Shown here piece by piece: positions 1,213-53,290 of a stretch of 64,000 nt of DNA (position 1 is its first letter; each line of letters opens with the position of its first letter). Position numbers and translations under genes: made by a program. The DNA lies in contig CM041199.1 in NCBI GenBank assembly GCA_023078555.1, positions 8,065,315 through 8,129,314 of the forward strand. Reading direction: 5' to 3'. This DNA is from Ulva prolifera. Its lineage: Eukaryota > Chlorophyta > Ulvophyceae > Ulvales > Ulvaceae. Under the pieces are notes generated by a model. That model saw nothing but the letters and a program-made list of their open reading frames with translations. It had not been told where the DNA came from and did no database searches.

Positions 1213-2636
1213 ATGCGTAGCACAATCGCTGCGCTGTCCATGCTGCTGCTCCGCAGCACACACAGCGCGGTTGGCGTTCACGCAGCGGCCGCCGTAGATG
1301 CCGCGTGGCACACAGGGGGACATAGCGCAAGCCTGGGCCATGCTTCCACGGGGCTGGCCGTGTCCGGGCGTTGGGAGTATGCGGAGGCGGACTTCATTGG
1401 GGAGGCGGAGCTGCCCGGCACATCTCTGCGGCACCTCCTGCATGGCTGCCACTTCAAGCGGTACGGCCTGCTCCCATGAAGGAGGGTAGTGGCGAGTGAA
1501 AGGTGTTCTGCTATTCGAGTGGCCTAGGGGTTGCGATCCAGCATGGCGCTGATGTTTGGAGGTTGCCAGATGTACATGCATGCCTGCCCTGGATGCACCA
1601 CTCCGTCAAGCCCGTTATGACATGGTAGAGCCCCCCCCCCCCCCCCCCCGCACGGCTACGGTGTGCCGCTGGGGCTAGCTTAAGTATTGATGCAGGCATG
1701 CGGTGGCTGAGCCATGAGAGAGGCACACTGTTGGAGTGTGTCGTGTCTACCCGCGCATGTCTGTGGATGTGCTCAGCCGGTATTGCCCCGGCATGTACAA
1801 CAGTGTGACGACGGGAGTGCAGGTGTGCCCACAGGTTGTTTGTGTGCCCGCGGTGCAAGTTCCCACGCAGCGGCAACTTTGGCCACTGCAAGAAGAACGG
1901 CCGGATCTTTCCTTGCCGTCGCAACATGAACAATGACGGAAATGAGGGCAACGAGGGCAATGAAGGAAATGAGGGTAACGAGGGCAACGAGGGCAATGAG
2001 GGTGCTGCAAGGACCCCTGAAGCCGCACCCGACTCGGCGTCTCCGGACGACAGCCCCGCCCCTGACGTCGCATCTCCGGACGACAGCCCCGCCCCTGACG
2101 TCGCATCTCCGGACGACAGCCCCGCCCCTGATGTCGGAAACGACGGCAATGAGGGGGATGAGGGGGATGAAGGCAATGAAGGGGACGAGGGGGATGAGGG
2201 GACTGAAGGGGATGAGGGCAATGAAGGTAATGAAGGTGACGAGGGAAATGAGGGGGACGAGGGCAATGAGGGAACCGAGGGAAATGAGGGCAACGAAGGG
2301 GATGAGGGGAATGAGGGGAATGAGGGTGACGAGGGTTTCTTTGCGAGGCTGCGCAGTAGAAACAACGAGGGTAATGAGGGTGACGAGGGGAACGAGGGGA
2401 ACGAGGGAGATGAGGGGGTCGAGGGGGACGAGGGCAACGAGGGCACTGAAGGGGACGAGGGGAATGAGGGCGACGAGGGCGATGAGGGGAACGAGGGGGA
2501 TGAGGGCAATGAAGGGGAAGAAGGAGATGAGGGGGACGAGGGGGATGTTGACTACAACGAGCAGGATTTTGACGAATTGAACGCGGATGACAATGCCGGC
2601 GTAAGTGTCGAGTATGAGAACGGCCTCGCCTATTGA
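1213..2636 (+). CDS. NEG-1: secreted Cys-module protein with long acidic (N/D)EG repeat tail
   Basis: Two exons, 1213-1460 and 1823-2636, give 353 aa; the GT-AG intron (GTACGG...GTGCAG) is phase 2. Exon 1 starts MRSTIAALSMLLLRSTHS, a signal peptide, then a linker and LRHLLHGC. The splice completes a six-Cys module: C-x4-C-x6-C-x2-C-x10-C-x8-C, including VCPRCKF and GHCKKNGRIFPC. From about residue 120 the protein is almost entirely NEG/DEG triplets, broken by three SPDDSPAPDVA units and a basic patch FFARLRSRNN. It ends in an acidic, Tyr-containing tail (DYNEQDFDEL, VEYENGLAY). Product: probably secreted, perhaps a calcium- or matrix-binding polyanion; this role is inference from composition. 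An in-frame ATG at 1150 is an alternative start, but 1213 puts the hydrophobic core at the N-terminus and matches NEG-2. The intron carries a 19-base C run. Confidence 0.75.
1631..1649 (+). repeat. Poly-C run inside the NEG-1 intron
   Basis: Nineteen consecutive C on the coding strand, between the NEG-1 donor at 1461 and acceptor at 1822. It is one of several intronic C runs in this window that all lie in the sense orientation. Confidence 0.9.
1929..2555 (+). repeat. Coding GAGGGNAAY/GAY hexamer-nonamer repeat (NEG/DEG)
   Basis: This is the DNA of the NEG-1 tail: imperfect tandem units of GAGGGCAAY or GAGGGGGAY coding E-G-N or E-G-D, interrupted by three near-identical 33-base units for SPDDSPAPDVA. 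Purines fill the sense strand almost without break. Related blocks occur in NEG-2 to NEG-6, and their lengths differ greatly between paralogues, as expected for a repeat that expands and contracts by slippage or unequal exchange. Confidence 0.85.
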
Positions 2637-4423
2637 GATGCGTATTGATATGGACTGCGTGTTGTCACTTGCCTAGCAATTACTAAAAGTAGTACTACAA
2701 CCATCAGCTATGACGATCTTGACTACAGAGTATTAGGAGCACCGAGCCTAGAAGCTAAACGACTACCACCTGTAAAATCTGGTAATTTTTTTTCATTTGC
2801 TTTCTCTAAAATGTTTCAAAATATATGTAAATATGACTACTCAGCGAGCAAGTGTATGGCCACCCAGCGACTCTTGGTCCGAACAGTGCGGCCACCAGTA
2901 GCTTTTGAGTTGTGCCGAGAGTCGGAATGCAAGGACAGGTTGCAGCTGATTTGCAATTGTTAACCAGCCAAATCGAGCACTACTGCGCATGGCCTGAGTG
3001 TCCGTGCTGTGCATATGTGTGCCAGTCACACCCAGATTGAGTCTTGTGTAGAGTAGCACACAGGCGCGGAGGCAGGTAGTGCCTAGGACAACATCGAGCA
3101 CCTCAAATCGTAGTCGGCGAACCAACATGACACACCCAAGCCACAGCCACTGGCAGCATTTCCGCGAGATCGAGAAGCGGCCGACACCGGCAGCAAGCAC
3201 AGAAGTAAAGCAGCCCCTGGCCCCGCACAAGCACAGCCAAGTGCCCCCACACTGACGCAGATGAACACTGTAACACACTCGACGTTTGAAAATTTGAATT
3301 TTAGTTAACGCACAGGTGCAGAGACACCCCGTGCACCAATCCGGGGAGAACACCCTTACCAGCAACACAGCAGACTCACCGCTGTGTAGCCCTCCCTGAC
3401 CGAAGCCTGCATCAAACTACACCAGAGCCGAGTTGGTCGTGGCACTATCACCACCGGCCATGCAGCCACCTCCCACGCCTTGCACTGAGCAGGATAATGC
3501 CAACAAGAGGTGGCACTGTTGCCTAGTGGGCTGAGATCTCGTGGTGCATCTCGCCGCGCAGGCTGACCGGCGGCGAGAGATTGCCAAACGAGGCTGTAAG
3601 TGTTGCTACTGGCTTGGCAACACTACCTTGGAGCGGCGGAATGGCAGCTCGGCGGACCTGGAAGCGACCGCACGGCAGAGTGTTGTGGAAGGATTGCACA
3701 AAGTGTTCTTGGGCAACAGCCGTATGCGTTTGCAGGCGGTTGGACCCTGCAGCCACGTCCGCAAGCTTAAGCTCGTTAAGGCTTGCAGATGCGGCGGCGA
3801 AGACTTGACCGTACAGTTCATCCGACGGTCGATCCAGGGTGAAGGTGCACGGGCAGTGACATACTTGCCGTGTTGGTGCTGGTCAGCTCAGGCGGCATCC
3901 TCTGCTCAGGCGCCATTGCGGACCGCAGCGCGCTGACTTTATTGCGGCGGCAACAGTGCTCCACAGCAAACTCAACCCACAGATAATTTTAAGGGAGTGG
4001 AGCCCCAGTTCATCGCCGCGACCAAAGAAAGGGCCTGTTGTATAACGATCCCTGTCGCTGAAGCGGGGCACCAGACGTTCCGCACCCCGCAGCATGTCAT
4101 GCATGGAAGACGTCAAGAAGTTCGGACAGGCTCGAGCTCGTGAGCGGGCCTGGGCCCCGGGAGCGCCGTGAGCCACGCTGATGCAACGGCCCCACACACA
4201 GTTGTGCAGTGTTGCTGCTATCAAGCGGGCTGCCTCCGCAATCTGAGCCAGGCAGCCGTCTGTGCACAGCCTCCTGTGCTCCAACATCGCAAAAGCTGCA
4301 CTGCAACGTGGTGCGCAAAGCGGAAGACCGCACTCAACATCCGATAGAGTCTGTAGCTGGTTGTGGCAGATGCAGGCAGCCCCGGCCTGCGGTATTTGCA
4401 GCGTCGACCCGCCCGAAAATATC
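2637..4423. other. Gap between NEG-1 and the NEG relic; no gene recognised
   Basis: 2640-2830 is AT-rich and probably the 3' flank of NEG-1. Open frames at 2841-3368 (minus) and 3541-3936 (plus, with a Cys-rich middle) have no domain I know and no clear splice context. About 4340-4423 matches the upstream module of the other plus-strand NEG genes (GCAGATGCAGGCAGCCCCG and neighbours). Confidence 0.4.
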
Positions 4424-4801
4424 ATGTGCAGCGCGCTCGTTGCGCTATGCATGCTGCTGCTCCACAGCACACGCAGCACAGTCAGCGTGCACACAGCAGC
4501 CGCGGCAGCTACCGAATGCGCATGGCCAGCAGGGTGGCACGGAGCAGGCATCGCCGAGAGTCCCATGAGGTGGGATGCATCTGGGCAGCGGGTGCATCCA
4601 GAGGCAATACATATAATAATGCCAACGGCTCGGTGCCCGGCTTAAGCCTCGAGGGCGAAGGGGAAAGCGAAAAGAAAGAGCAAAGAGGGCAGCGTGGGTA
4701 GCGAGGGTGACGAGGGCAACGAGGGGAAAGCGAGTGATCTGGGAGTTTCGAAAGCACCAGTGTCTCCAGATGGCAGCCTGGCCCCACAGGACAAAAAATA
4801 A
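4424..4801 (+). pseudogene. Relic of a plus-strand NEG gene
   Basis: At 4424 the frame reads MCSALVALCMLLLHSTRS, clearly paralogous to the NEG-2 signal peptide (MHSAIVALCMLVLHSTHS), and runs on to a WDASGQ stretch matching NEG-2 VDVSGQ, then stops. A second frame at about 4650-4801 reads [20 protein letters not shown] followed by APVSPDGSLAPQDKK and a stop, matching the post-Cys basic stretch, the repeat and the Pro/Asp unit of NEG-1 to NEG-3. The conserved L-L-x-G-C end, the intron and the Cys module are missing between them, so an internal deletion seems to have fused exon 1 to exon 2. It lies between NEG-1 and NEG-2 in the same orientation. Confidence 0.65.
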
Positions 4802-5049
4802 AAAGCACTCAGGGGATTTAAGTTGGTCAGGGGGGCGGCGGAAACAAGGGATTTGAAGGCGCCGGGCATGTACTCATGGTCTTCATATGTACGAGTCGGA
4901 TATCCTCAAGGTTTGCCTATTTCTGGAGTTGTGCAGAATATGAGCGTGACAGTCACGGTGGTCGTCCGGACGATCTTAGGATCCTGAGATGGCGTTTAAA
5001 TTTCCAGCTGCAGGCTGCCCGCCACACTGGAATCTGATCCGTCTCCATT

Positions 5050-5600
5050 GTGACACATGCAGGTCATTCATGGCCAAGGTGTCACCAGCATGATCACATA
5101 CCCTCCGTGGACATGCACAGTCGCCACCAAATGCAGTCACACAGCTTTTCGTCATGCTCCGCTAAGACTGCCGACAGCGCGGCGACCTGTTGTCGTCGTT
5201 GTCAGCCGGCTGCAACATGGCGACATTGCTTGCAAGCAATTAACACATGCCACCGCCATGTTGGACACTCTCATGGTACAGGTGGCAGGGTCCCTGTGTG
5301 TGACGCATTGCATCAATGAATGTTCATGCGCGCGTGGCGTACCCTTTTGGCGCGCGGCACCAGCGCAGGGGCTTCCGGACGACCACAGCGTCACGCGCTA
5401 GGCTGTATTCTAGTTTCGCGGCATCTGCGCCGCTGCCCGCCAAGATGGCCGCGCCTCTGGGCCCCGGCTCTCCATGTAGCCAGTGCTGCGGTCAGCGCGC
5501 GAGCATGCGGTCATCTGGCGCGGGTGCGTGCGCAGGCGGCGGCAAGCGCAAGGTGGTGTAGGGACAACCCCATGCAGTGCGCGTGGCTGCTACGATGCAG
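5050..5600. repeat. Segmental duplication partner of 15.69-16.49 kb
   Basis: The block resembles 15690-16490 along its length. The CATGGCCA-GGT-CACCAGCATG stretch at 5088 matches about 15700. CGGCGACCTGTTGTCG at 5180 matches about 15820. The run from about 5330 to 5600 matches the NEG-4 first exon and its upstream flank (AGGCTGTA-TCTAG, CTGCTGCCTGGCGTGTG). The copy carries a decayed exon 1 but no recognisable exon 2. Confidence 0.6.
5337..5577 (-). pseudogene. Relic first exon of a NEG-4-like gene
   Basis: Minus strand, starting MGLSLHHLALAAACARTRAR against MGLSLRLLTLAVASVAAAAA in NEG-4, but with an in-frame TGA directly after. The downstream part still aligns (DAAKLEYSLARD against DATELEYSLVGD; WCRAPK against GCHAPR) and keeps a GGTACG donor-like end. 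The L-L-H-G-C motif is degraded to LRWC. No Cys/acidic second exon was found below it on the minus strand, so I call it a dead copy. Confidence 0.6.
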
Positions 5601-5641
5601 CTGCTGCCTGGCGTGTGCCTCTTGTGCTGGGGTCTCTTGGC

Positions 5642-5705
5642 TTGCGGCCCTGAAGGCATGCCTTCAGGGCCGCAAACATGGGCCTATGCATAGGCCCATG
5701 TTTGC
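5642..5705. repeat. Two overlapping perfect 34-bp palindromes
   Basis: 5642-5675 is a perfect 34-bp palindrome (half-site TTGCGGCCCTGAAGGCA). 5672-5705 is a second perfect 34-bp palindrome (half-site GCAAACATGGGCCTATG). They share the four bases GCAA. There is no spacer, so each could extrude as a loopless cruciform. The tract sits just upstream of the relic exon and has no counterpart in the paralogous flank near 16.55 kb, which suggests it arrived after the duplication. Confidence 0.85.
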
Positions 5706-7579
5706 AAAGCACTGGCAGTCTTGAGTGCTCCACCTCCGAGACATGCAGGCGTGGGGGTGGGCTTGCATGTGTTACCTGGATGTGGGGCTTTGCCAGCAGC
5801 GCAGGTGCGCCAATCAGCTGGCTGACATGTACAGATCGTAGAGCGTCCCGTGCGCAGCTGTCCTATCTAGAGCACATGTGTGTACACACAAGATCAGTCC
5901 GTCGATGGATTCTGGACATGATCATGAGCTCAACTCCAGATGAAATCGCTCGATTCTGGCAGCTCGTGGCAGGTAGATAGACCGTGGCCGAGGCACATGT
6001 AAAAACATGTGTGCCCCATGCCAGTGGCCTGGTTTGAAGATGCTAGCATGTATCCACTAGCTGCGGCATGGCACATCGCAGCCATGCATGCGATACATGC
6101 ATCATCAATGCAGCACCTTTGATGTGCACGCACGTGCGAGGTAGCTTTAGTTTTCAAGACTGTCTATAGATATCTGAGGCAGACAGCACGGCGCGGCATG
6201 GAAGTTGTGCTGTAGTTGACCGTTCTGAACACAGAAATCACATATATGAGATCCTCGACTAGCGGTTCAGGTTCAGCAACGTGGCATGGCCAGGTGGCTG
6301 GATGGGTGGCTTTGACCCCAGCTTCATAGAGTCGGTACATCTCAAGACTGTAGCAACCATGAGTGCCATGAATCTAAACAGCCATGCTGTGTACCACTGG
6401 CAGCTACATGTCTTGCCACACAGCCTCATGTTGCGCAGACACACCTTCACGGCTGTGTGTGTCTGCCCACCATGTAGCAGGAGCTCCGCCCCAAAATATC
6501 TCGTATTATCTCGAGATATCGCAGATAGTCGCAGCACCGACTTCGCAGTCCTGCGAGTTCCCATCGACCATGCTGTGCGTGAACTGCGCTGCCAACTCCG
6601 TACCGGAAAGCCCTTCAACCATTCGCGTACGTTGGCAGGAGGACAAGCCGTGCGCACGGAGCTCACGGTGCAGAGCGGCGCTCGAGCCATGACTGCAGCA
6701 ACGCTAATAGGACAGTAGCACTGGAAATACTGCGACAGGCAACCCAGCGAAGGTGAAGACATGTATCTTATTACATGAGCCATATGATATCATCTATATA
6801 TGTTGCCGGGCAACAAGTACACGCATGAGGCAAGCAGCTCCAGTGCTTGAAGCCGCTGCCTTGCAGGTGCAGGTGGCGCACGTCGGTGTAGCGCAGTCGG
6901 CCTTTGCTGATCTCGCTAACTTGGAGATCCAAAGGCTGGCGCAAGTGCCGGGCGGATTCGGGATCGGTTCAAGGCAGGTCGCGCACGCGTACGGTTTCGC
7001 CACCACGGCAGGTCCGGTCCGGACCTCAGTTGCAAGCGCTAGCGTACCTTCCGATTGTGATTATTTAAACAAAAGAGCGCACCTTACGATCATTCGGGTG
7101 TTGCTGTACATATCTGCAGCCATTGACGCTTCTGCAAGATCTTCGTGTTGTACATGTGGTCGTTTGGTCCGTTTACTATCTCGGACCAGAGATATGCAGC
7201 TTGATCATGCGTCCACACCGCCGACGCTGTGCGCTCTGCATGCAATGCGAGGTTTCTTCGAGTCCAAACGTTCTCGCAGAATCCAGACGCATGCATGCGC
7301 ATGTCATCTCCGAGTCGGACGAGAGCAAGGCGCCGCCGGCGCCGCCGGAGCTGCAGACCCGACCCCACAGAGTTTCGTGCTGAGTAGACTCCACACTCAG
7401 CCCCAGATTGCCGAGACGCTCGCCAGCTCCTCCCGCTGTCACAAAGACGTCACAGCTGATCACACCGCAGTGTGCCATGGCGGCGATGGCAAGTGCTGTA
7501 GCTGTACACATACGTAGTGCAGGCAGCCGTCACCGTCCGGACCTCTAGCACCTGCAGCACTGGTCCCCGCACGTCCACC
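5706..7579. other. Gap before NEG-2; no gene recognised
   Basis: No frame here has a domain I can name. The stretch at about 6490-6530 contains palindromic TTATCTCGAGATAT-like sequence. About 6880-7579 is the duplicated upstream module shared with NEG-1 and NEG-3. Confidence 0.4.
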
Positions 7580-8631
7580 ATGCACAGCGCGATCGTCGCG
7601 CTCTGCATGCTGGTACTCCACAGCACACACAGCCCCGTCAGCGTTCACATAGCGGCCGCTACAGCTGCCGCACGGCACCAAGAGCGGCAAAGATCAACAA
7701 TCGGCGAGAGTTACACGGGGGTGGACGTATCCGGGCAATGTGAGAATACAGAGGCTTTGTATCTCGTTGGGGAGGCTGTGTTGCCTGGGACTCGGAGGTC
7801 CGGCCGGGACCTCATGCAGCGCCGCGTCTGCGCCTCCAAGAAGTACGGCCTGCCTCTCAGTTCAAGACTGTTGAATGCTTCGGCTTGTGCATTGACTTGC
7901 GTGGGCCACAGCTTGGAATGGCCTGTCCCGCATGGCACTGCGAGCCCGGTACCGCAGACGTGCATGCAGCCCGAGGCCTGTCCTGGACCCGGGAGCGAAC
8001 GGCCTCCAATGCTATTGCCAGTGCCGTGATGATATATGCATACATGTGCTGGCTGAAGATCATGCGGCACTCCATTGCAGTGTGTCACACCTGCTCCCGC
8101 GTAAACAGACCGGTAGGGGGCCCCCTTGGTAGTGTGGCCAGCATGTACGCGGCATTGGGACGGTGACGAGAGGGGATGTGCAGGTTTGTCAAGATGCTGC
8201 CCGTGTGCCCAATATGCAAGTTCAGGAGCAGCACCGCCAAGCGCGGCCGCTGCAGGAAAAATGGGCGGGTGTTCTTTTGCCGCCGCAAGCTTCCTCTTAA
8301 GAGGAAGGGCAGAGGGAAGCATGAGGGCAATGATGGCAACGAGGGCAACGAGGGCAATGGTGGCAACGAGGGTAATGATCATGAGGGCAACGAGGGCAAT
8401 GAGGGCAATGATGGCAATGAGGGCAACGATGGCAACAAGGGTAATGATCATGAGGGTAACGAGGGCAATGGGGGAGATGTATGCGCAACGATGTCTGCGG
8501 ACGGCGGCCCGGACCCTGACGGTGACCAAGACAGCACTTTGGGGGATGACGGGGACGGAGGAGACAAGGGCAACGAAGGGAATATTAATGCCAGTGGGGG
8601 CAGAAGAGCGAGGTCGCGCAGGAGGAACTAG
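7580..8631 (+). CDS. NEG-2: secreted Cys-module protein with (N/D)EG tail and basic C-terminus
   Basis: Exons 7580-7842 and 8184-8631 give 236 aa; GT-AG intron (GTACGG...GTGCAG), phase 2. The start MHSAIVALCMLVLHSTHS is a signal peptide. The usual R-x-L-L-x-G-C end has drifted to LMQRRVC. Exon 2 opens FVKMLPVCPICKFRSS and continues to RGRCRKNGRVFFC; the second Cys of the six-Cys module is Phe here, leaving five, so one disulfide must be lost or rearranged. A lysine/arginine stretch (RRKLPLKRKGRGK) separates the module from the repeats, which include GNDHEGNEG units with His. The C-terminus is basic, GGRRARSRRRN, like NEG-3. The paralogous comparison fixes both splice sites. Function unknown. 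Confidence 0.72.
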
Positions 8632-9739
8632 TCAGCTGAGGCCAGATGGCAATAACATGACAAGGGATTTGCAGGCAATGGTCCTGTGGTGTTCAGATTT
8701 GTGGCATACGCAGTGTCTGCACAATGTGTGAGGAACTGTATTGGGTCATTGCTGCCAGAGACAGATGCGTACAGATGAAGTTCTGGGTGCCACTGGCCCA
8801 GTGTGTGGCTGCCACAGCTGCAGCTTGACCGAGACGGGGTGCCCATAAAAGCCGTGCGTGCGACTGGCTGACAGCCAGAGTATTTACTCTTAGCGGCATT
8901 CACTCGTTGGAGAGCATGCCGCAGCAGCCCTGCGCTTGTCATGTATGCATGTAGGCGCACAAGGGGCCACACTGCCATACGTGATAGCGTTTCTTGATAA
9001 TTGGGACGATTCCAAGACGATGGCTGGTAACGTAGAGACGGGATAAAGAAATTGCACATTCCATCAGATCTAAAGGCATCAACGCCAAAGCACCACTCGC
9101 AGTGCAACACACCTGCCGTCGCCGGCCTGCACAAATTTGCCCTTAAGGCTCACTACAACAGCAGGGGCTGGACTCCCCCCTATCGGATGCGTTAGTGTCG
9201 GAAGCACGTGCACCGACGGGGGGACCGGCAGAGGCGCCACCACGCCACAGTGCATTGGCCCTTTCATGGCGTGGTGCGCCGTACATGGCCATGTCGCTGT
9301 GAACGACTGCATCTGAAACTACCACGCCTCATACTATGAGCGCCTGTATACGTAGCGTACGGAGGGTGCATCTGAACGTCTAGATTTCTGCAGGAAACGG
9401 GCGCGCTTGTTGTCCCAAATTTGCATATGATCTCCAGAGATGAATCCGCCTCTGTTGCAACACATCCATCCCCACGCCCGACCATGGCCAGAGGAGCCCC
9501 TCTGCGGCATAGCAACATAACAGCGACATCATTTTCCAGCCCGCCTGCTCCAAATTTAAAGCACGCCCAACGCGCAGTGATCATGGGCTCAGCGTCCGGG
9601 CGTCGGAGCCTGCAGCTGCTGAGGAGCTGGCCGCACGTGAGTCGCCGCACGGCGATTGGCGCTTGTGTGTGCATATGTACTGGCGGGAGTGGTTGCTGGT
9701 GTGTGCGGAGCTCCTCGAGGTATGGGTGGGCTTGTCTGT

Positions 9740-11337: not shown

Positions 11338-12592
<1,255 letters not shown>

Positions 12593-14321: not shown

Positions 14322-14340
14322 GGGGGGGGGGGGGGGGGGG
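14322..14340 (+). repeat. G run, 19 bases
   Basis: Nineteen G on the plus strand, C on the strand of NEG-4, whose stop lies about 240 bases away. Confidence 0.9.
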
Positions 14341-14578: not shown

Positions 14579-16489
14579 CTATGCCAGTAGGCGACGCGAT
14601 GGGCTTGCATCTGCAGCAGCCTCCGGTATCTCACCTGCTGCGAGCGATGTCTGTTCGGCGTCAGCGCCGGCCGCCGCATCGTCATCCCCACCCCCACCCC
14701 CACCTGCAGCTTCTCCCCCTACCTCCTCCTCTTTCTCCTCCGTGGGTGGAGGAGGAGGAGCAGGGGCTGGTTGGGGCGGTTGCGGGGGCGGAGGGGGCGG
14801 AGGTGGATCCCCCTCGCCACTCGCCCCGACGCCGTCGGTGTAGTCACCCACCGCAGGCACGTCGAACTCAATCTCGTGTTCGTAGTCCACGACAATGTCT
14901 GGATCGTTCACGACGTGGAATCCGTCATACTCGCGGTCGTACGAGCCGGCGTCGCTGGCGGCCGTCCGCTCCTGCGCGAGCGCATATCCGCGCCCCGTAG
15001 GCAGCCCCACCTGTCGCTGCCGCCGCTTGGCGGCCGCGCCGCGCTGGTTGCGCCAGTTTGCCCCCGTCGCGCCGCCCTCGTTGCCTTCGTTCCCCTCGTC
15101 CCCCTCGTCCCCCTCGTCACCCTCGTTGCCCTCGTTACCTTCATTGCCCTCGTTACCGTCGACGCCGTCGTTGCCGCCGCGGCGGCAGTTGAAGAGCTTG
15201 GCGGACGCCTTGCAGTGGCCGACGGCGGTGGCGGCGACGAACGTGCACACCGGGCACCGCCTGCTGCACCTGCACGTGCACATGCTGTACAACTTGTGTA
15301 TCGAATCACCGCCACTGCATGCATGAGTACGTCACAGCGTCAACCACTTGCAGCGCACTGTGAATGTAGGCGAGGCTGGCACCAACGCGGTGTGTCCCAT
15401 GGCACAAGGACGCATCCCCACCTCCTGTTTTCAGAAGCAAATGATTTTGCAAATGTTGAATCTTCAACAGCCCCGGGACACACGAGCGCAGCCCGGCCAA
15501 GCCGCATGCAGCCGATATCGATGTTCTCTGATGATGCTGATCGTGCTGTCTACAATGCTTCTTCATTGCCAAGTGACCGTGCGTTCTACTGTCGAGATCT
15601 CTATAGGCGACGGGGGCCCTGGGTCTCCCAAGTTTCAGGCAGGCTACCTGCCCCTTCGTCTTTGAATCACAAGTTGTCCGTGTAACATATGCAAACCATG
15701 CATGGCCACGGTAGCGCCAGCATGGACACACAGCCAAAGTGCAGATCCAGGCAGCCGCTGATCATGAGCCGAAAGCCACCAGGGCTGACGGAAGTATCTC
15801 GAGACACGCTGCCGTGGCGACCTGCTGTCGGCCAGAACGTGGAGCAGCGATGTGTAGTCAGCACGCATGGCCACATGCATCTGCAATGCCGGAAGCTCTG
15901 ATGCTGTATCTGATAACGTCCCTCGCGGTGGTGTATTTATACGTGACTTCGCACTGACCAGGCATCGCAGCATCCATGAACTCGTGGCCAGGGTGCCGCC
16001 ACAGTCGCCGAACAGCAAGCCCGCACAAGAGCAACGTTGCCCTGGCGGTGATACCGGCCTCTCTCGCCTTGTCATTTCAACTCATGGGCAACATGCCCAC
16101 ACGGTGTATTCTCCGCAACAACGCACTTAAACGGTTTCAGGAAAAACCTCGAGGTTTCAGATCATATCAAAAGAAGAACCTCCTTCAATCTTGAGAGAAT
16201 TCAGAGAAAGATACATGAAGTCTCAGTGTTTGCAGAGGCTTATACGGTTTAGTGTACACAAACGTTCGTACCTTGGCGCGTGGCAGCCATGTAGAAGCGT
16301 CCGGAAGGTCGCGGAATCCCCCACTAGGCTGTACTCTAGCTCCGTGGCGTCTGTGCCGCTGCGCCCCGCGCCTCCAGGCCCTGGCTGCCCACGCAGCCCC
16401 TGCTCCGGTGAGCGCACAAGGACGGGCTGAGCTGCCGCTGCCGCGACGGAGGCGACGGCGAGTGTAAGAAGACGCAGTGACAGCCCCAT
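14579..16489 (-). CDS. NEG-4: secreted Cys-module protein with (N/D)EG and proline-rich tail
   Basis: Minus strand; exons 16489-16272 and 15269-14579 give 302 aa; GT-AG intron (GTACGA...GTGCAG), phase 2, about 1 kb. MGLSLRLLTLAVASVAAAAA is a good signal peptide. Exon 1 ends FRTLLHGCHAPR. The module is C-x4-C-x3-C-x2-C-x10-C-x8-C (CSRRCPVCTF, GHCKASAKLFNC), with the KKNG core replaced. A short DEG/NEG block follows, then a segment with VVNDPDIVVDYEHEIEFDV that matches the NEG-5 tail. After that come a polyproline run, an EEKEEE patch, a glycine/aspartate run and the end ASPSRRLLA. A relic of the same subtype lies at 5.3-5.6 kb. The tail beyond the Pro run is low complexity, and a further intron there cannot be excluded. 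Function unknown. Confidence 0.7.
15270..16271 (-). other. Intron of NEG-4
   Basis: The roughly 1-kb intron holds no recognised gene. Its part from about 15690 is shared with 5.05-5.3 kb, which shows that the intron was inside the duplicated segment. Confidence 0.55.
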
Positions 16490-19885: not shown

Positions 19886-20010
19886 CGACCACGGACCACG
19901 GACCACGGACCACGGACCACGGACCACGGACCACGGACCACGGACCACGGACCGCGGACCACGGACCACGGACCACGGACCACGGACCACGGACCACGGA
20001 CCACGGACCA
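19886..20010. repeat. Heptamer tandem repeat (GACCACG)n
   Basis: About 17 head-to-tail copies of the 7-mer GACCACG with one variant (GACCGCG). Because 7 is not a multiple of 3, all three frames of a strand read the same peptide cycle (DHGPRTT forward, VVRGPWS reverse), which explains several spurious open frames. Confidence 0.95.
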
Positions 20011-35751: not shown

Positions 35752-36888
35752 TCACTCCTCCTTCTCCTCCTCGTCCCGCTCCTCCTCAAACTCCTGCCGC
35801 GATACCGGTGTGACCAGGGGGGTGATGCTCTTCACGGACGCGTCCGCCCACGCGGTCGTCCCCGTCGCCGTCGCATTAGCGACAGAGGGTCCCTCCGGCC
35901 CGTCCGCCACCGCTCGAACAGGCACCGGGGCGGGCGTCGGCGCAGGGGCCGGGGCTGGCGCGGGCGTCAGGGACCCATCAGAGGGGGTCTCCTCGTCATC
36001 CTCCTCCTCCTCTCCCATGTCGTGATCCGCCTGGAATGCGTACTCGGCTTCGTAGTGCACCTCGATCGCGTCTGGGTCCTGCTCCACGGTGTACTCGTCG
36101 TAACTTTGGAAGAATGTTGGCTGGAAGGGTTCGGCGTTGGTGGCGAGGGCGGCGCTGCGCTGCCTCTTGTTAGCCACGCTTGCCTGGGCGGCCTGGCCCC
36201 CCTCGTTGCCCTCATCACCCTCATCACCCTCGTTCCCCTCATCGCCGTCGTTTTCCCGCACACACACAAAGAAGCGCTTGTTCTTCTTGCAGTGCCCGCG
36301 GTCAGAGCCTTGCGGGAACTTGCACCGGGGGCAGAATGGGATGCACCTGCGGCCCCAGCACGTGCGTCAGAGGCTGCATGCATGTCGGCACACGCGCACA
36401 TGGGGTCTACAATCGCCAAGGGAAGGCCAGCTGTGACACGGCCAAAGGGCGACCTGGCCATGGCAAATTGTCACTAGGTATCCCGTACTGGTCAGCCACA
36501 GCGGTGCATGTGATGCAACTCCGCTGAAGACAATTCATGAGCGCCCGTTCAGCAGGCAGTACAATCTCGACACCTCAGGGACTGACTCACATTGTGCTTG
36601 TGGCCACTTAGCATGCACTGGCTACATGTAATTGACATGCATGGAACTTTCAGTGCTTCGTTTTTTTTAAGCCTTGGGGGGGGGGGGGGGGGGGGCTCAC
36701 CCACTCCTGTGACATCCATGGAGTAGCTTGCGAGAGCTGCCTATCATGTCCAGGAATGCGCTGCCATCAGCAGCTGCACTTCGTGCAATCGAGGGCGCAG
36801 CTCTTGCCTCAACTGGCGCTACTGAAGTCGTGGCCAGGAGTGCCGTGGTGGCTAGGAGGGCGCGCTCCACAATATGAACGACTGCCAT
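35752..36888 (-). CDS. NEG-5: secreted Cys-module protein with short DEG block and acidic tail
   Basis: Minus strand; exons 36888-36701 and 36346-35752 give 260 aa. The intron is phase 2 with a consensus donor GTGAGC and acceptor CCGCAG. The start MAVVHIVERALLATTALLAT is a signal peptide. Exon 1 ends SSRKLLHGCHRSG. The module is C-x4-C-x3-C-x2-C-x10-C-x8-C (CIPFCPRCKF, GHCKKNKRFFVC). Only about ten DEG/NEG units follow. The tail is a conserved acidic, Tyr-rich segment (YDEYTVEQDPDAIEVHYEAE) that aligns with NEG-4, then EEEEDDEE, a Pro/Ala run and the end EFEEERDEEEKEE. A 20-base C run in the sense strand starts directly after the donor. Function unknown; an extracellular polyanion is likely from composition. 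Confidence 0.75.
36676..36695 (-). repeat. Poly-C run (sense) at the NEG-5 donor
   Basis: Twenty G on the plus strand, so C in the NEG-5 transcript. It begins right after the GTGAG donor at 36700-36696. Confidence 0.9.
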
Positions 36889-40855: not shown

Positions 40856-40889
<34 letters not shown>

Positions 40890-41006: not shown

Positions 41007-41015
41007 GTCGCGTCG

Positions 41016-42402: not shown

Positions 42403-42411
42403 GTCGCGTCG

Positions 42412-45400: not shown

Positions 45401-45571
45401 GCTGCAACTGTGTTGTGAGAGGCGCAGGTGTCACAAAGACAAAGGTGTTGCCAAGTGGACAAGCGGGCGTTCGTCGGCCGAGGCAGCTGGCGCGCTGGCT
45501 GGGACAGCAGCAGCCTCGCACATGCTCAGACCCCGACCCTTGTACATTGTACCACATTGGGCAGGAGAGGT
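42412..45571. other. Gene-poor stretch
   Basis: No gene recognised. A frame at 43955-44140 (plus) starts with a signal-peptide-like stretch (CVSALAVALGAASAAVDG) but lacks any domain or splice partner. It holds the inverted repeat at 43185-43271 and short hairpins around 45245-45320 (CTTCAAGTTCAACTTGAAG). Confidence 0.35.
43185..43271. repeat. 26-bp inverted repeat with 35-base loop
   Basis: The left arm 43185-43210 (TTGTGTATCGAAATCCTTTG...) and right arm 43246-43271 are complementary at 25 of 26 positions. The loop is 35 bases. No flanking duplication was clear. It could be a small foldback element or a structured RNA. Confidence 0.75.

Positions 45572-45606
<35 letters not shown>
45572..45606 (+). 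repeat. G run, 35 bases
   Basis: Thirty-five consecutive G on the plus strand with no gene assigned around it. Confidence 0.9.
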
Positions 45607-45608
<2 letters not shown>

Positions 45609-48501
45609 TGTTTTTGATATGGACAATCGTCTAGCAGTGTGCTCGGTGTATCTGTCAACGCACGGGACAAGACAAAACATATTACAGGCGTGGCGTATTT
45701 GTCGCGTCGCGGCGGCGGCGAGGAGTACGCACGTGCGGTGCGGTGCATTGCTGGCTATGCATTGCTGGACAGGCAGTGTGTATGTCACGTACCCGCCCCT
45801 CAGGGTGTCCATGGGTGACTTTGGGTCACTGACTTGGTATGATTCACATCTGCCCGCAGGCACCCGGGCGTCTCAGAGGCGACGTGGACGTGCCGGATTT
45901 CATTTGTGCTTTCTTTTTCTTTTGTATGCAGGGCTCTGAGCCCAGCAATGTAAATCAGGCGTCAAATCTAGAGGCTGCTTCCGGAACACAGCATCCAGAT
46001 CTGCTGGGTGCACGTCACTCAGCATGGAAATCAGGAACAGCCTTCACCTGTGCTGGATTTACGCCGGTACCAAACCTAGCACATGGTGCATTCTGCCTGG
46101 GAGATGGAAGATGGATGCCATCACCGCTTCCGAGGCTCCCATTCCCCATTCCATCATTGCATGATGTGAAGTCCAGATGCTCCCATGAGAGGGCATGCAT
46201 GGGAAGCTGCACCCACACACAGACACACATGTGTGACGCTTCACACTGACACAAAAGAGTGTGACACAAAAAGACAAAGTCAGGGATACGGAAATTCTGG
46301 CTCTTTTGATTTGTCATGTGGGGGTGAACCCCAGGGCAAACCCTAGGTAAGGTGTGGACATTGTCAGTGCATCCCAGCTGTCCCTGAGCAATCAATAATC
46401 ACCTTCTACCTACGAAAATCTCCAGCTATGAGCACTTTCCAGCTATGGTAACGTGCCCATGCACCCTCATGCAATGGACCAAGAGCTTGGCTGTGAGTGG
46501 CTGTGGTGCACATCCTGGCTTGAACTCGAATGCACTCTGCATGAACAGCATGACCCTGCAGCATGCAAGCCAATTGCATCAGCCACACCACAACAGCATT
46601 CATCAGCTTCCCCGGGCTGCCTAGGCCTGCAGCTGGGCAGCTGACACAAGCCTGCACCAAGCGCATCTTCACCAAACAACAGATCATGCATGCCTGATCT
46701 GATGCTCCCTTGGAAACTCCGAAGTCCGCTCTACGGTCTGGGCCAGCTGGGGCATGCAGGCAGCCCCATGCCCCAGGTCGTAGAGCCATGTTCATACTCC
46801 CATGGCAAAACCACTGACCACCATGTTGCACCCTCAAGCATTGGCTGGTGATCAGTGATGAAACTTACAACTTTCCCTGCAGGACTGCAGCATTGCTGGG
46901 ATCCAGCATGCAGTTCCAGGTAGGTCAGCATGTTATGCACTGGAAGTTCACACTCTGCCATGAAACAATGCATGCATGCATGCATGCAGTCCTAGCAGGT
47001 GCCGCGTTTGAGCGATCTCTCGTGATGATATATCATGATATCTCTTTCTTTTTCCATGACATGGGGCTTGCACATGCATGATTCACATCCCTCGGCAGGG
47101 TGCTCACAGCTGATCTCCGCTGGCCATATTCTGACCCCGACAGGCCACAACCTGCACCCGGATTAATATGTATAAACTCGTCGAAAACAGATCTGTGGCC
47201 TGAGAGTGCTCCCCTGGACCAGACGTGTTCACACCTGCAGCTCTCAGAGAGGACATAGCGAACAAATCAGCATGAGCCATTGCACTTCACTGAATTCTTA
47301 ACTTAAGTGGCTTTGGACATCATCATGCATGTATACGGTGCATGCTTGAATTCACCAGAAGGGTCGCGATCGTGAGAACTCAAACTCACGGCTGTGCCCC
47401 ACCAGGAAGGCCCCATGCATGCTGGCTCCAGATCTGGAGAGGGTGTCCAGGGTGGCAGGTGTTCTAGAACTGTACAGTGATGGACCCATGGGGCTCAGAT
47501 CCGCTCATCAGATCTGTTCAGAATAATTTGAGGCGGGTCCTCTCAGCACATGCATGGCATATGTGGACCCATTAACTCGCGAGTTGTTAATGTCCGACAG
47601 GATATGGCTCAGTAAATTCAGATTTACTTTACTTTACAGCCGCGCTAGTGTGCATGCTTGGAGTTGACTGCTGTTTGCCTTGATGCACTGGCATTTTTCC
47701 CCATACATGCAGGACGTCCAACACTGCCAGTTTAGTCGGCGTATGCATGCATGCACAACGACAGAGGCCAGAACAATGGGGGCGAGTGGGACTCTGTTGC
47801 GGGACTCTGTTGCAGCGGCAGAAACCAAAGAATATTCGAGTTTGACCAACAGAACAAGGCAGGCTGAGCATAAGCATTGCAGGGTGAAGTACTTGACGTC
47901 AGGTACTAGCGCGGACAACCTGAGCAGGCGCAATGAAGTTGGTGACTGTCAAGCGTACTATAGATCACCATCCAGCATTGCGAGTAGGTGCAGCCACAGG
48001 CGTGCCGCGTTGCCGGGGAAGGGGGTGGGGTGGATTCCAGGGGCCCGCCAGGCTGCCCAGGGCTACTAGTAGGCCGGGCCGCCTCGGGTGCGGTGGTGTG
48101 GGTGGGTGTGCGTTTGTGGTGTGCGCATGCGTTTGTGCGCGCGGGCAGGTGTCCACGGATGTTGCCACACGTCGCGGTTTGGTACGCGAGTGCAGGCGAG
48201 CGCCCAGCACCGCTGAATTCAGTAGTTCCTAGTCGACCCATGCCAGGAATCACAGCCCAGAATATCCATTCTCTCCTTGTACCTTCAACAAGCCCGCCGC
48301 GCGCCACCGTGTGACACTGCATGAGCAGCGCCGCGACACAGCCACTCCCCTGGCTTACAAAAGAGCCGCTCCCCTATCTCTGAGATAGGCCTGCGTCTCG
48401 CATGGCAAGTCTGCAGCCATGGGACCGGACGCACTGGCCAGCCGTTGGCGTCGAGCCCATGCATATGGGCCTGATTGCGCACGCTTGCAACGTGTTACAT
48501 A

Positions 48502-48542
48502 TCTCTAATTAGAGACTAGGCGGCGTCTTTATAAAGACGCCG
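48502..48542. repeat. Adjacent perfect palindromes
   Basis: TCTCTAATTAGAGA (48502-48515, 14 bp) is followed by CGGCGTCTTTATAAAGACGCCG-type sequence (48521-48542, a perfect 22-bp palindrome with half-site CGGCGTCTTTA). The pairing of two palindromes recalls the tract at 5642. Confidence 0.8.
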
Positions 48543-50202
48543 GGGTGACCGGCCGCGGGCTCAACAGAATCGAATTGGTTCATTGCAGGCACGTTAACGT
48601 AGCGCCATCGAACGGTCGACATCGCCGCTTCGCCAGTGCCGTCATGCCCGAGGTCTCTGGAGTTCCGAAACGCATGCTGCAGCTGCGCGGAGCGGTCGCT
48701 CGAGTTGGCGGTGCGCGTATCGAACCTCCGGCGCGGGCGAGCTTCCCTGCCATGGGCGCGATCACTCGCGATCGCAGTGCCTGCGCGCATGGCACGTGCA
48801 CAGATTCACACCGAGATCAAGATCGCGCAGGCACGGGCGCCCGTGCCGTGACGGGCAGCTGAAGCGTCCTCGCCGCCAACCATTCGTTGTTGCAAGTGCC
48901 TAGGCTGTTGCTGGCGTAACAATTCGGAGATGTCCGACATTCCCCACGAGCGTCCATGTTCGATGGATCCCTGTACCGGGTGTCGATTCGTGCCATTTAT
49001 GCGCATGCATGTATAGTACGCGGCTGTGTTCTCCGGAGATCCGGCAGGCTTGATCTTGGACAATCTCCTCTGCACAACGTTACACCATGGTGTCTCGAGG
49101 TATGCGGGGCTCTGTGTATGCTAGCACTGCTAGTATCTATATGTTTTTTTTGAAGGACTGTATACGTATACATATACGTATACGTATAAATACGTAGCTG
49201 TAGCAGGATCTTTGCACTTGATCATCATCGCTACACCAGTCAGTGCATTAGCAATTGTCCGACATGTATGAACATTCAATGTTTGTGCTGGTCCTGGGGA
49301 TGTGAATGCAGCTAGCACATTGCATGTGTAAACCTCTTCGCGAAGTTTGTTGTTATATGTGTGCCACAGCTGCGTGCTGGTTTTGCTTCATTAATATTTG
49401 ACTTGAGCAGAAGTTTTAAATTCAAATTAAATTCAAATTTGCAGTCATTCAAGCCTGTCATTTACCCACTCTTACAATTAAATTACAGACCACATATGCT
49501 TGGAGCGCCAAGATTTTACTAGCACCTGGCCATGGTAAGCCTGACCAGCCTACTCATGGTCATGAATATTATTTAGCATGCAGACAGCATATGCTGTGCT
49601 GTTGACTGCTTGGCCTCGCAGGAGGCTCTCACCCAGATCAGACAAATGCTGCTGAGAACTGCAGGTGCTTGTGATCAAGAAACATTAGTGATTGTGACAC
49701 ATAGTTGCCAGCACACGTGTGTGTGCTCGTGAGCACCCAGTCAATGAAGTTCTGGGTCATGAACTGCAGCGAGCCTCTGCAGGTCTCTGCAGGTCTCATA
49801 TGAGGCTGCATCGAGCCTCTGCAGGTCTCATATGAGACCATCCTTATCGCCCCGGGGCCGTTGCAATCGATGGAATGTTAACAATTCCGAACCTGAATGT
49901 CTATATCGATTGAACAATTCCAAATTAATTAATGTCTACTTTTCGAAAGCTAGGCTCAAATATGCTGCCAGGCATTCTAACATGTGCATGTGCTCTAACT
50001 TGCATGAACACTGATCACTGAGATGGCATGATGCTTATCAACACAGGCACCTGCAGCTGATCATGAGAAGGCCTCCCCGTGGTTGCTTAACCATACCTGA
50101 CCTGCAGGTGACTGGCGCCATTGCAACGCATCTACAGCTGTAATACTATATATTGACTGTCACAGTATACGGTATCATATGATATGATCGTATGATACAG
50201 TC

Positions 50203-50205
<3 letters not shown>

Positions 50206-50278
<73 letters not shown>

Positions 50279-50299
50279 GTACTATGATATGATGAGTAC

Positions 50300-50344
<45 letters not shown>
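50206..50344. repeat. AT microsatellite pair
   Basis: Two AT runs (about 50206-50275 and 50302-50344) are separated by an AGTACTATGATATGATGAGT spacer. Confidence 0.9.
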
Positions 50345-50350
<6 letters not shown>

Positions 50351-51781
50351 CATCTGCGCCGATACTCATCTGGGCAAGAGGGCAAGAGGCGAATCACTTT
50401 CATAATCATGTAGCTAGCATAGGATGACTCTGTATCATTATTCAGCTATCACTTCCGCATTAGAGCTGCCAGAGAAGTTCTGCTAACGTCACAGGCAGTG
50501 CACATGCATGCACATGCATGCGGTGTATGTTGCAGGCTGTGATGTGGTGAATCCTAGGAATCTTCACACATGATGACCTCAAGTCTCTGCATGTGCCTAT
50601 AGGGACCAACACAGTGAATTTAACTAAATTGGCAAGAATTGTCTGCATGTTCGAGCCAGGAGCCAGCCAGCCAAGAGGCCAAATACACACATGCATGCCA
50701 TGGAGCAATCGTGTCCACGCCTTCTTTTGTGAGCACTGCCTTCCTCTGCCTTCCTCGGCACTCTCATCAATGGCGATTATGTTGCAACTTGGAGGTACCA
50801 TGTGCAAACATGCAGTCCAGACTAGTGCATTGTGCACTCTCGCGATACAGATTTTGGCTAACACAGGCTTGAGAAACAAACATCCAGAATCTAAATAAGA
50901 AAACTGCGCAGCTGTACGCTGGCTGGGAGCGAGTCGCCACGGCCGGATCTACAGCTGCACACCTAAACTCCAAACGCCCCGATTGCGATGGCGCTAGATA
51001 GAGGCTCTACCAAGATGCCGCAGCAACCAGCGCCACATCCCAGCTGAGGGAAGAGGAGAACAGCCTGCTAGTATCCAACTCCGCCGTAACAGTCCAGCTT
51101 TGAAAAAGTTGGAACCTGTGAGCGTGAGCAGGTCGGGTACCCGTGGGTACACGTGGCGTCCCATCCCAGCCAGAGCCGTCCAAGAAATACATGCATCGTC
51201 ATAATCGCAACCCGTGAGTGGGTTGTCATGAGACTGCAATCACCCCCCCCACCCGCAAACACCCCTCAGCCTCCGATGAGGGTGCCGATGAGCTATAGTC
51301 TAACTTCAAAGTACGCGCCAAGCATCTCCACGGCCGCACACGCGTCCCACCCTGGCACAAACCAGGGCCTGCAGATACTCTCGCCCCCGCAATCTCCACC
51401 GCCGCTTGCGTGCAACGGCCGCGTTGCGGCGCTCAGCAGCCCCGTTCAACAGCCACCCCACACCTGCTGCGCCCCGCGCACGGCTGAGTACCTCCTGCCT
51501 AGCACGCAGTGCAGCCACGCCGACGTAGAGCCCCCCAGCAAGCCACCTCCCATCCTGCACCCTTCCAGGTGCCGCTACCACTGGCCGCGGGCCAGCAAAG
51601 CACAAATGGGCACACAGAGCCACCCCCGTCTCTTGGGCACCCGCACAGAGATGAAGCTAGGCCTGAAGACGCGTACACCAAGCCGCCATTTGGCGAGGGT
51701 GAGTAGAGCTACCAGTGAAGGTGCCACACCGCCCCACTCCCGGGGCAAGTCGGCAGGGAGGCGGAGGCGCGCTGTTGGGGT

Positions 51782-53290
51782 CTACTTTGTGATCACCTTG
51801 GAGGAGGTGGTGGCCGTGGCGGTGCCGCTGGAGGTGCGGGTGGCGGCAGTGCTGCCACCAGGGGTGGTGGTGGTTGTCGTGGAGCTGCTGACAGAGTTAC
51901 CTTTCTTGCCCTTCGTCTTCACACTGGTCTTCCCTTTGGTCTTGATCGTCACGGTGTCCTTGCCCTCGTTGCCCTCATCACCCTCATTGCCCTCGTTGCC
52001 TTCGTTGCCCTCGTTGCCTTCGTTCCCCTCATTGCCTTCGTTGCCCTCATTGCCCTCATCTCCCTCGTCACCCTCGTTCCCCTCATTCCCCTCGTTCCCT
52101 TCGTTGCCCTCATCACCCTCATCGCCCTCATCACCCTCATCCCCCTCGTCGCCCTCGTCATCGATCTTGTCCTGGACAGAGATCTTGAAGCACTTGGCGG
52201 CGCCACCGTTCCTGCGGCACTGGCCTTCGGTCTTGCCCTTCGCCACCCGGCACCTCGGGCACTTGGGCAGGCACCTGCAGCCACCGTATACGTCAGGTGG
52301 CCATGTGATGTACATCATCTCAGGAGGAACAACGATACATACACAAGCACTGGGTCTGTGGTGCAGAGGCAGCAAAGATATGTGAGTCTGAGGCAGCAGA
52401 GGAGGCCTGCATTGCCAACAGGGTGCACATAGACCAGGCGTCACATGTGCCTAGGCCTCGCCACACCCTGTGGAGGAGCAGCGAGCCATATGTGATCATC
52501 AGCACTGACAACGTCAGGCACTGTCAGCTCTGACTTCTTTCGGGTAGAAGCTCCCGGGCCAACTTGTACCCGCGCTGATGGCACAGCATGCAGACACAGC
52601 CATACAGACGCAGACAACCTATATATAGCTATATAGCTAGGGTCCCCGGTTCGGTCTGCACAGTAACCCCGGATCTGAGATGCTACGTACGTGCATCACG
52701 CAGCATGAAGCAGTACCACGAAACACATGCATGCACAGCAGTATAGTATGCACACGCGCAGGACTACGATCATGCCTTTCCGATTCGAATATGATAGAGC
52801 GGAAGTCTCACAACTGATCTGCGCGACAGGACAGCGTGGGCTGCATGACGGCACCATGACGGCACCCGGCACGTGCGCACAAACGCAACAGCAACGGTGC
52901 TCCGCGGTGTTGCGATTGTGTGCACATGCCGCGCGCCGTGATGCAGAGCACGCTGACCTGTCGCAACAGCAACGGTGCTCCGCGGTGTTGTTGTACGGCA
53001 CGAGGCATAGGTTGTGCACAGGTGGTGCCGCACTGGATGCCCTTGCAGCCAGAGAGCAGCCGCCGGCTCAGCCCACCGAGGCCGCCGTCCGCCTCCACCT
53101 CTACAGCGTCCAGCTCACCGGTGACGATGCCGGGCACGACATCAAACGCCGAGGGCGCGCCGAGCGGCTCTGGCAGCAGGCTTGCGGCGGTGGCCCGGGG
53201 GGCGCTGAGGAGGAGCAGGCCTGCGGCGGCTCCGGCGGCGGCGCAGAGGGCCGACAGGAGGCTCGGGGCGCGGCTGGATGCGGGCATCAT
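51782..53290 (-). CDS. NEG-6: secreted Cys-module protein with DEG block and Ser/Thr-rich end
   Basis: Minus strand; exons 53290-53034 and 52274-51782 give 249 aa; GT-AG intron (GTGCGG...CTGCAG), phase 2, about 760 bp. The N-terminus MMPASSRAPSLLSALCAAAG plus the following Ala/Leu run is a signal peptide. The linker is acidic (GELDAVEVEADGG), and exon 1 ends LSRRLLSGCKGIQ. The module is C-x4-C-x3-C-x2-C-x10-C-x8-C (CLPKCPRCRV, GQCRRNGGAAKC). A DEG/NEG block follows, then a lysine patch (KGKTSVKTKGKKG) and a Ser/Thr-rich end (SVSSSTTTTTTPGG, TSSGTATATTSSKVITK) of the kind that is often O-glycosylated on secreted proteins. It is the most divergent member of the set yet keeps all six Cys and the intron position. 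Function unknown. Confidence 0.75.

Follow-up and report, generated by a model that had tools for sequence, protein, structure and literature searches.

What is encoded by a cluster of genes in the green alga Ulva prolifera that join a small cysteine-rich (Cys) head to a long tail of (N/D)EG tripeptides? The window analysed here is a stretch of 64,000 nucleotides of contig CM041199.1 (assembly GCA_023078555.1; G000:C4:8065315-8129314 in our numbering), and its six genes form one cluster of a wider family in the genome (88.9 Mb in 44 contigs). A first-pass annotation of the window had offered an extracellular calcium-binding matrix, scale or mineral scaffolding, mucilage or a defensive peptide precursor as possible roles. 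We propose that the products of the six genes are secreted, modular proteins of the extracellular matrix (cell wall), processed by site-1 protease (S1P), with a cationic head and a cation-binding tail, and we give this reading an even chance of being right. An extracellular cation-binding matrix is the best of the earlier ideas, a defensive precursor stays a rival, and for scale or mineral scaffolding we found nothing beyond acidity. What our analysis adds is some 40 predicted relatives, a Gly-X-Y pattern in the tail, an S1P motif together with an S1P gene in the genome, and the separability of head and tail as modules.

Each of the six genes previously described splices, and both reported relics, at 4424-4618 (+) and 5569-5345 (-), are present. 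The shared architecture was likewise borne out, with a hydrophobic N-terminus, R-x-L-L/M, the Cys module and (N/D)EG repeats in all six genes, as were the exon joins, which a splice search places consistently at a phase-2 intron. The same search finds a phase-2 intron between the first and second cysteines (C1 and C2) in all 26 gene models, six in the window and 20 elsewhere in the genome; exon 1 carries the hydrophobic N-terminus, a propeptide, R-x-L-L and C1, and exon 2 runs from C2 onward into the tail. The window contains the following features.

1213..1460, forward strand: G1 exon 1, with a signal-peptide-like N-terminus, propeptide, RHLLHGCHFK and C1
1823..2636, forward strand: G1 exon 2, with C2-C6, 51 Gly-X-Y units in three runs, a Tyr-acidic end and stop
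4424..4725, forward strand: relic 1, the remains of a G1/G2-type first exon (4424-4618; E 3e-11 against G2 exon 1) and a short (N/D)EG remnant (4700-4725)
5345..5569, reverse strand: relic 2, the remains of a G4-type first exon, interrupted by a stop in frame (E 3e-11)
7580..7842, forward strand: G2 exon 1, with N-terminus, propeptide and RDLMQRRVC (C1)
8184..8631, forward strand: G2 exon 2, with C3-C6, Phe instead of C2 and a degenerate (N/D)EG repeat that has no Pfam Collagen match
11338..11648, forward strand: G3 exon 1, with N-terminus, propeptide and RHLLQRC (C1)
12172..12592, forward strand: G3 exon 2, with C2-C6, 19 Gly-X-Y units, a basic end and stop
16272..16489, reverse strand: G4 exon 1, with N-terminus, propeptide and RTLLHGC (C1)
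14579..15269, reverse strand: G4 exon 2, with C2-C6, 12 Gly-X-Y units, a Tyr-acidic block, a Pro-rich segment and stop (acceptor picked by hand, between TGCAG and GTGC)
36701..36888, reverse strand: G5 exon 1, with N-terminus, propeptide and RKLLHGC (C1)
35752..36346, reverse strand: G5 exon 2, with C2-C6, 6 Gly-X-Y units, a Tyr-acidic block, an Ala-Pro-rich segment and stop
53034..53290, reverse strand: G6 exon 1, with N-terminus, propeptide and RRLLSGC (C1); start at 53290 or 53287
51782..52274, reverse strand: G6 exon 2, with C2-C6, 22 unbroken Gly-X-Y units, a basic and Thr/Ser-rich end and stop

The acceptor chosen by the script was also replaced by hand in L059 and L013, as in G4 (TGCAG or TAG before GTG), with the phase unchanged. 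A bacterial or viral reading of this DNA was rejected, since the genome measures 88.9 Mb and has introns and a chloroplast-type plastocyanin. Two plastocyanin exons, located through a Pfam search, agree at every residue, over 45 and 49 positions, with the PDB chain 7PCY of Enteromorpha (now Ulva) prolifera and less well with 1IUZ of Ulva pertusa, as fits a sea lettuce.

After splicing, the head reads R-x-L-L-H-G-C-x3-8-C-x3/5/6-C-[PNKS]-x-C-x10/11/15-C-x8/10/12-C, with the spacing taken from the 25 of 26 models that keep all six cysteines. The exception is G2, in which Phe replaces C2, and the earlier count of six Cys in five of the six window genes is correct. The charge split between head and tail is plain: from R-x-L-L to C6 the net charge is +5 to +16 (median +10), and acidic residues are absent from the head in 14 of the 26 models. 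Pfam has no significant match for 22 exon-2 cores (best E 0.021, DUF6758) and none at E up to 1 for four spliced heads, NCBIfam has no match for one spliced head and two intronless relatives, and the PDB has no significant match (best E 0.062, a zinc finger); in these searches the Cys module was matched to no known domain. The first-pass annotation had placed the proteins in no named family and had said that a strong match of the Cys module to a known one would count against this. None was found in the three databases, and the claim holds for the head; it does not hold for the tail, which the Pfam Collagen model recognizes in G1, G3 and G6.

The C-P-x-C core raises the possibility of a metal-binding module, zinc-ribbon or metallothionein-like, in place of a disulfide-bonded one, and the weak matches to the PDB zinc finger and, in one of the 22 cores, to Double zinc ribbon (E 0.039) point the same way. 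These scores are not significant, the signal-peptide-like N-termini would direct the module to an oxidizing compartment, and to our knowledge C-x2-C-x10/11-C-x8-C is not a usual zinc-binding spacing; we consider metal binding highly improbable. For the disulfide-bonded head that we prefer, a pairing of C1 with C2 is suggested by four relatives that have the head without an intron (L023, L027, L068 and L069): all four keep R-x-L-L-H-G and C3-C6, and all four lack C1 and C2 together.

Immediately before C1 the proteins carry a second conserved feature. R-x-L-[L/M] is present in 26 of 26 models, with Leu at the last position in 25 and Met in G2 (R-D-L-M), and all 26 fit the S1P motif, R-X-(L/I/V)-Z, in which X is not Cys or Pro, Z is preferably Leu or Lys and the cut falls after Z (PMC12419022), although Leu-Leu formed part of the search for most models outside the window and is not independent evidence there. 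The Arg is a fair test of the motif because it was not in the search pattern: 18 of 18 members have it four residues ahead of the predicted cut, whereas among the 12 other loci with the pattern 3 do (including L040, a probable member). The four intronless relatives, found through the core alone, all have R-x-L-L. The genome also contains an S1P gene, which scores 48.5 bits to PF23001 (cut-off 27) and whose catalytic exon scores 371 bits to the S1P chains 8UWC/8UW8 as against 94 bits to the next match, a subtilisin. The exon that precedes the catalytic exon of this S1P itself contains RQLL, and in mammals S1P cuts itself at several sites, RRLL being one of them (PMC8019017). We predict that S1P cuts the window proteins after R-x-L-L, so that the mature chain would start with the Cys head. 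RxL processing is known in diatoms; a diatom-type reading of the site was set aside, since the S1P motif, with a Leu following as well, fits better.

Behind the head comes the repeat. AAYGARGGNAAYGARGG, with up to 2 mismatches allowed, has 108 matches in the window, as against 0.27 expected from shuffles. We regard the repeat as kept for its protein, because its codon spelling varies synonymously under a constant tripeptide, and for the same reason a non-coding minisatellite was rejected. Among 128 units, 65 NEG and 37 DEG are spelled in 14 and 9 ways, respectively, and all four Gly codons are used even though the Gly is invariant. Between adjacent units we counted 163 synonymous and 112 non-synonymous changes, whereas the expectation is about 2.8 non-synonymous changes for each synonymous one; the non-synonymous share is about a quarter of neutral, in a count whose units were chosen by their Gly, which favours conservation. 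In the register G-(N/D)-E, the repeat forms a strict Gly-X-Y sequence with Gly at each third residue. When triads were counted without selecting units by Gly, the residue after consecutive (N/D)E pairs was Gly in 90 of 90 cases in the window and in 437 of 439 in 15 other Ulva loci, among which L004 and L006 are near copies.

The Gly-X-Y pattern brings collagen to mind. Runs, in triplets, are of 8, 23 and 20 in G1 (separated by a Pro-rich, Pro-Asp insert and a basic/hydrophobic break), 22 in G6, 13 and 6 in G3, 12 in G4 and 6 in G5; they are short or broken in G2, G4 and G5. Pfam Collagen (PF01391) is above cut-off in G1 (77.6 bits), G3 (30.5) and G6 (36.6), a match that shows the pattern and not the fold, because artificial (NEG)15 and (DEG)15 strings also pass. 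The tails might nonetheless be true collagens of a new kind, Pro-free acidic triple helices that divalent cations and salt stabilize and that the Cys head caps at one end. Besides the Pfam scores, this idea draws on the constancy of Gly, which is third in 527 of 529 Ulva triads as against 2125 of 3225 (66%) in 17 bacterial loci with a look-alike repeat, a count that leaves out L083, L086, L098 and L100 (weak or non-alphaproteobacterial) and L081, and on collagen genes reported for two Ulva genomes, 28 in U. mutabilis and 4 in U. compressa (PMC9266709). Composition speaks against it: neither Pro- or hydroxyproline-rich X and Y positions nor mixed-charge stabilization was found in the window tails, which have no acidic/basic pairing, whereas known hydroxyproline-free (bacterial) collagens keep Pro at X or have many polar or mixed charged residues (PMC8968730, PMC3368898). 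With runs of just 12 and 6 triplets in G4 and G5 in addition, we think a new kind of collagen quite unlikely. The tail has the collagen pattern but misses the collagen composition, and a triple helix is a candidate structure only. The repeats may matter for gene counts all the same. Genome-wide, Pfam Collagen has at least 125 matches, part of them not (N/D)EG (three of the seven loci read, L074, L077 and L078, are other Gly-X-Y repeats or doubtful frames), and (N/D)EG repeats probably underlie the "collagens" counted in Ulva genomes.

The repeat runs are almost wholly acidic, and two further kinds of segment accompany them. After the repeat in G1, G4, G5, L013, L039, L041-L044 and L064 comes a Tyr-acidic block (about V-x-Y-E...Y/F), as seen in a loose alignment of ten members picked by hand; it is a possible site of Tyr cross-linking or sulfation. 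In L041, L042 and L016, the acidic (N/D)EG blocks are interleaved with others rich in Lys, Arg and Gly (KKGRKGGKKK), an arrangement that could possibly form a self-associating polyampholyte.

How far does the family extend? A DNA pattern for the exon-1 motif L-L-H-G-C has 39 matches in the genome, as against 5 for a reversed-pattern control, and an exon-2 core lies downstream on the same strand in 23 of the 39 (18 of 30 excised loci, and 5 of the remaining 9 judged by coordinates). The 12 of 30 loci without a usable exon-2 core inside the locus were dropped; 11 are chance-like or unjudgeable, and L040 looks like a family member with its second exon lying elsewhere. A search with the consensus head gives 41 places at E up to 10, of which 39 remain at a limit of 1; no fewer than three members (G6, L038 and L055) escape it. 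We put the predicted family at about 40 genes, some perhaps defective. Clusters lie on contig C1 (5.93-6.23 Mb), contig C2 (4.26-4.97 Mb), contig C4 (the window and, just upstream, L022) and contig C10. Within the window there are also a perfect (AT)77 tract inside the G3 intron (11796-11949) and a (GACCACG)18 array (19887-20010). A search of IMG/VR for relatives gave 17 pattern matches, none of which was confirmed.

Across these loci the head and the tail are separable modules, each found with other partners. The (N/D)EG tail is attached to the head in the six window genes and in L013, L016, L024/L044, L025, L038, L039, L041, L042, L043 and L064. In a class on contig C2, the head is followed by an acidic Tyr-rich linker and then by a further multi-exon domain (L049, L050, L052-L057 and L059; L058 has the linker only); a beta-helix reading of this domain, made by eye in L031-L033, was dropped for want of Pfam or PDB support. 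The intronless L027 and L068 have a second Cys region. Conversely, in the stretches read, L003 and L079 have (N/D)EG repeats but no head, and in L004, L005, L006, L008, L073 and L076 the repeats, again without a head, come with a Cys/Ala-rich domain. Other partners are Pro-rich segments in G4, G5, L038 and L039 and repeated N-G-T/N-A-T in L039, both typical of matrix proteins. The loci with a Cys/Ala-rich domain after the repeat (L004-L006 and L008 on contig C1, L073 and L076 on contig C3) form a second secreted-looking Ulva family. L073 is the one locus read among 22 Collagen-model matches at G000:C3:1.50-1.68 Mb, and L076 lies at C3:1.43 Mb; they carry R-D-L-L and R-G-L-L, respectively, ahead of their repeats, and R-x-L-L may be in use in several families of matrix proteins. 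The L004-type gene is present in equal or near-equal copies at G000:C1:3.6-19 kb and C1:1255-1277 kb, which suggests a recent segmental duplication or an assembly repeat.

What might such proteins do in Ulva? The wall is rich in ulvan, a sulfated polysaccharide with uronic acids that forms weak gels with boric acid and divalent cations, and the same source calls the matrix glycoproteins "essentially uncharacterized" (PMC8307928). Judging by titles and abstract openings, with subscription literature mostly outside, we found no description of the head-tail family, and one passage of PMC9164130 held nothing useful on wall-protein composition. The simplest mechanism would be that the cationic head sits on ulvan while the acidic, Gly-spaced tail collects Ca2+ and Mg2+. 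A signal peptide would bring the protein into the secretory pathway, where an S1P cut after R-x-L-L would remove the rest of the N-terminal 56-98 residues (signal peptide and propeptide), and the mature chain would begin at the Cys module, with H-G-C in most members. The module would then fold through disulfides into a compact cationic head, with a C1-C2 pair and a separate C3-C6 core. In the tail, where X is Asn or Asp and Y is Glu, an extended polyanion would bind the Ca2+ and Mg2+ of sea water and may self-associate. With its head on the sulfated uronic-acid polysaccharide and its tail on divalent cations or other chains, the protein would keep the wall linked and hydrated.

Several points weigh against this picture. 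The splice consensus (by the script's own choice, GTRCG at 19 of 26 donors and TGCAG at 23 of 26 acceptors) is partly built in, since the scoring favoured GTRCG-like donors and TGCAG acceptors. Putative signal peptides were judged from hydropathy alone, by which all six window genes have an N-terminal hydrophobic stretch, weak in G1. A strict C1-C2 pair is countered by G2, which has C1 without C2, and by L026, which is without C2, and the four intronless relatives may represent one event. Half of the window genes (G2, G4 and G5) have no match to Pfam Collagen, and Pro is present in just 1 of the 128 repeat units. The open frame of L062 ends 12 residues past C6, such that the tail is not essential everywhere. 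Finally, the proposed binding of ulvan and cations is argued from charge alone.

A location in the wall would also suit signalling or regulatory glycoproteins, and a high-molecular-weight sporulation inhibitor that is a cell-wall glycoprotein has been described in U. mutabilis and U. linza (PMC4347444). The sequences themselves give no hint of such a role, and a family of about 40 members with varied tails looks structural; we rate this as very unlikely. We know of no gene assigned to the Ulva sporulation inhibitor.

The main rival to a wall-matrix function is a thionin-like defence precursor, in which the cationic six-Cys head would be an antimicrobial peptide set free outside the cell, kept neutral and harmless by the acidic propeptide and tail until processing. 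Plant thionin precursors have this layout, with an acidic segment behind a basic, Cys-rich peptide. The strong positive charge of the head fits, L062 is a nearly bare head with a basic-residue end, and the occurrence of relics within tandem clusters would agree with defence-gene turnover. By contrast, the tails are long, repetitive and strictly Gly-X-Y, which exceeds what neutralization needs, and one class has a multi-exon domain after the head instead. L038, once taken for a second bare head, proved in a longer stretch to have a long (N/D)EG tail in the frame of the head, which leaves L062 as the sole nearly bare head. Nor do the heads show a sign of diversifying selection: in 311 of 351 pairs (27 sequences), non-synonymous sites have changed in a smaller proportion than synonymous sites, a weak measure given about 30 codons and synonymous sites that are often saturated. 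In the closest pair, L041/L042, the two proportions are almost equal. On balance, we consider a defence precursor unlikely, and continue to favour structural wall proteins.

A repeat of almost the same kind exists in bacteria. A scan of prokaryotes found 22 loci (L081 to L102) that match the repeat and, as far as they were read, not the Cys head. Seventeen of these, from 11 records or species, belong to genera that we take to be Rhodobacteraceae, and one is from Mesorhizobium; in 16 of these 18 the open frames are rich in (N/D)E(G/x) and 487-1030 residues long, some being cut by the locus ends. Giant (N/D)E(G/x) repeat proteins are found in L085, L087-L097, L099 and L101-L103, and six loci (L085, L087, L090, L095, L101 and L102) have a double-Gly leader. 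In three of six genomes checked, the repeat gene lies between a radical S-adenosylmethionine (SAM) gene and a gene for a C39-peptidase ATP-binding cassette (ABC) transporter, as judged from sequence in genomes G001 and G003 and by coordinates in G002; a C39 match is absent from G004 and G005, and in G006 it is far from the repeat gene.

L103, 2525-10660 (also in L104): radical-SAM/C39 operon

The radical-SAM protein of G001 scores 475.5 bits to a maturase model for ribosomally synthesized and post-translationally modified peptides (RiPPs; cut-off 525), and the operon, with its radical-SAM/SPASM maturase and C39 transporter, resembles a RiPP-type system for the export of a substrate that is very long and repetitive. 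U. mutabilis has a Roseobacter partner that shapes its growth (PMC4347444). We regard convergence as a more likely source of the likeness than exchange. The boldest combination of these observations would be a collagen of Ulva's own, a nearly Pro-free acidic fibre matured by S1P, with a new disulfide head and with sea-water cations in the place of hydroxyproline, alongside a look-alike polymer exported from radical-SAM operons by Rhodobacteraceae, to which the morphogenetic partners of Ulva belong, either convergent or a mimic of the host matrix. We regard it as a long shot.

Ulva is a model for green-algal multicellularity and morphogenesis, and the family provides good candidates for its uncharacterized structural wall proteins, with a processing site and a protease predicted for an algal matrix. 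It also gives the "collagens" of Ulva, listed as animal-like in genome papers (PMC9266709), a likely concrete form, a nearly Pro-free Gly-X-Y polyanion that is often carried on a new Cys head, such that the claim that Ulva has collagen becomes directly testable with short synthetic peptides. Compared with collagens as defined by PF01391 and as reported in the same genus, the tails share Gly at every third residue, and those of G1, G3 and G6 exceed the cut-off; they differ in being acidic and nearly free of Pro, and in having a new Cys head and an S1P-type propeptide, with the triple helix as a candidate only. The repeat proteins of the Rhodobacteraceae operons have nearly the same tripeptide and are presumably exported, but they lack the Cys head, have 66% Gly at the third position and in six cases a double-Gly leader, and we see no evidence of common descent.

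As to processing, plant RALF precursors are S1P substrates with R-x-L-L/R-x-x-L sites. In the Ulva proteins, as in S1P substrates such as SPRING (RNLL; PMC12419022), R-x-L-L ends a presumed luminal propeptide (25 of 26 models); they are, however, neither membrane transcription factors nor short peptide hormones, and their cleavage is predicted. With plant thionin precursors they share a signal peptide, a basic Cys-rich domain and an acidic C-terminal part, but the Cys spacing differs, the Ulva tail is longer and repetitive, and an R-x-L-L propeptide precedes the head; general Pfam scans of 22 exon-2 cores and four spliced heads, in which the thionin pattern was not specifically sought, gave no thionin match. 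Lastly, the green-algal hydroxyproline-rich wall proteins (extensins, arabinogalactan proteins and pherophorins), of which arabinogalactan proteins are known from Ulva (PMC10762512), are secreted like the Ulva proteins appear to be, and G4, G5, L038 and L039 have Pro-rich segments as well. By the glycomodule criterion, Pro-rich or Ala-Pro stretches occur in G4 and G5 and a Pro-Asp insert in G1, and they are absent from G2, G3 and G6. Several members of the Ulva family do without a Pro-rich segment, and what defines the family is its Cys head and its Gly-X-Y tail.

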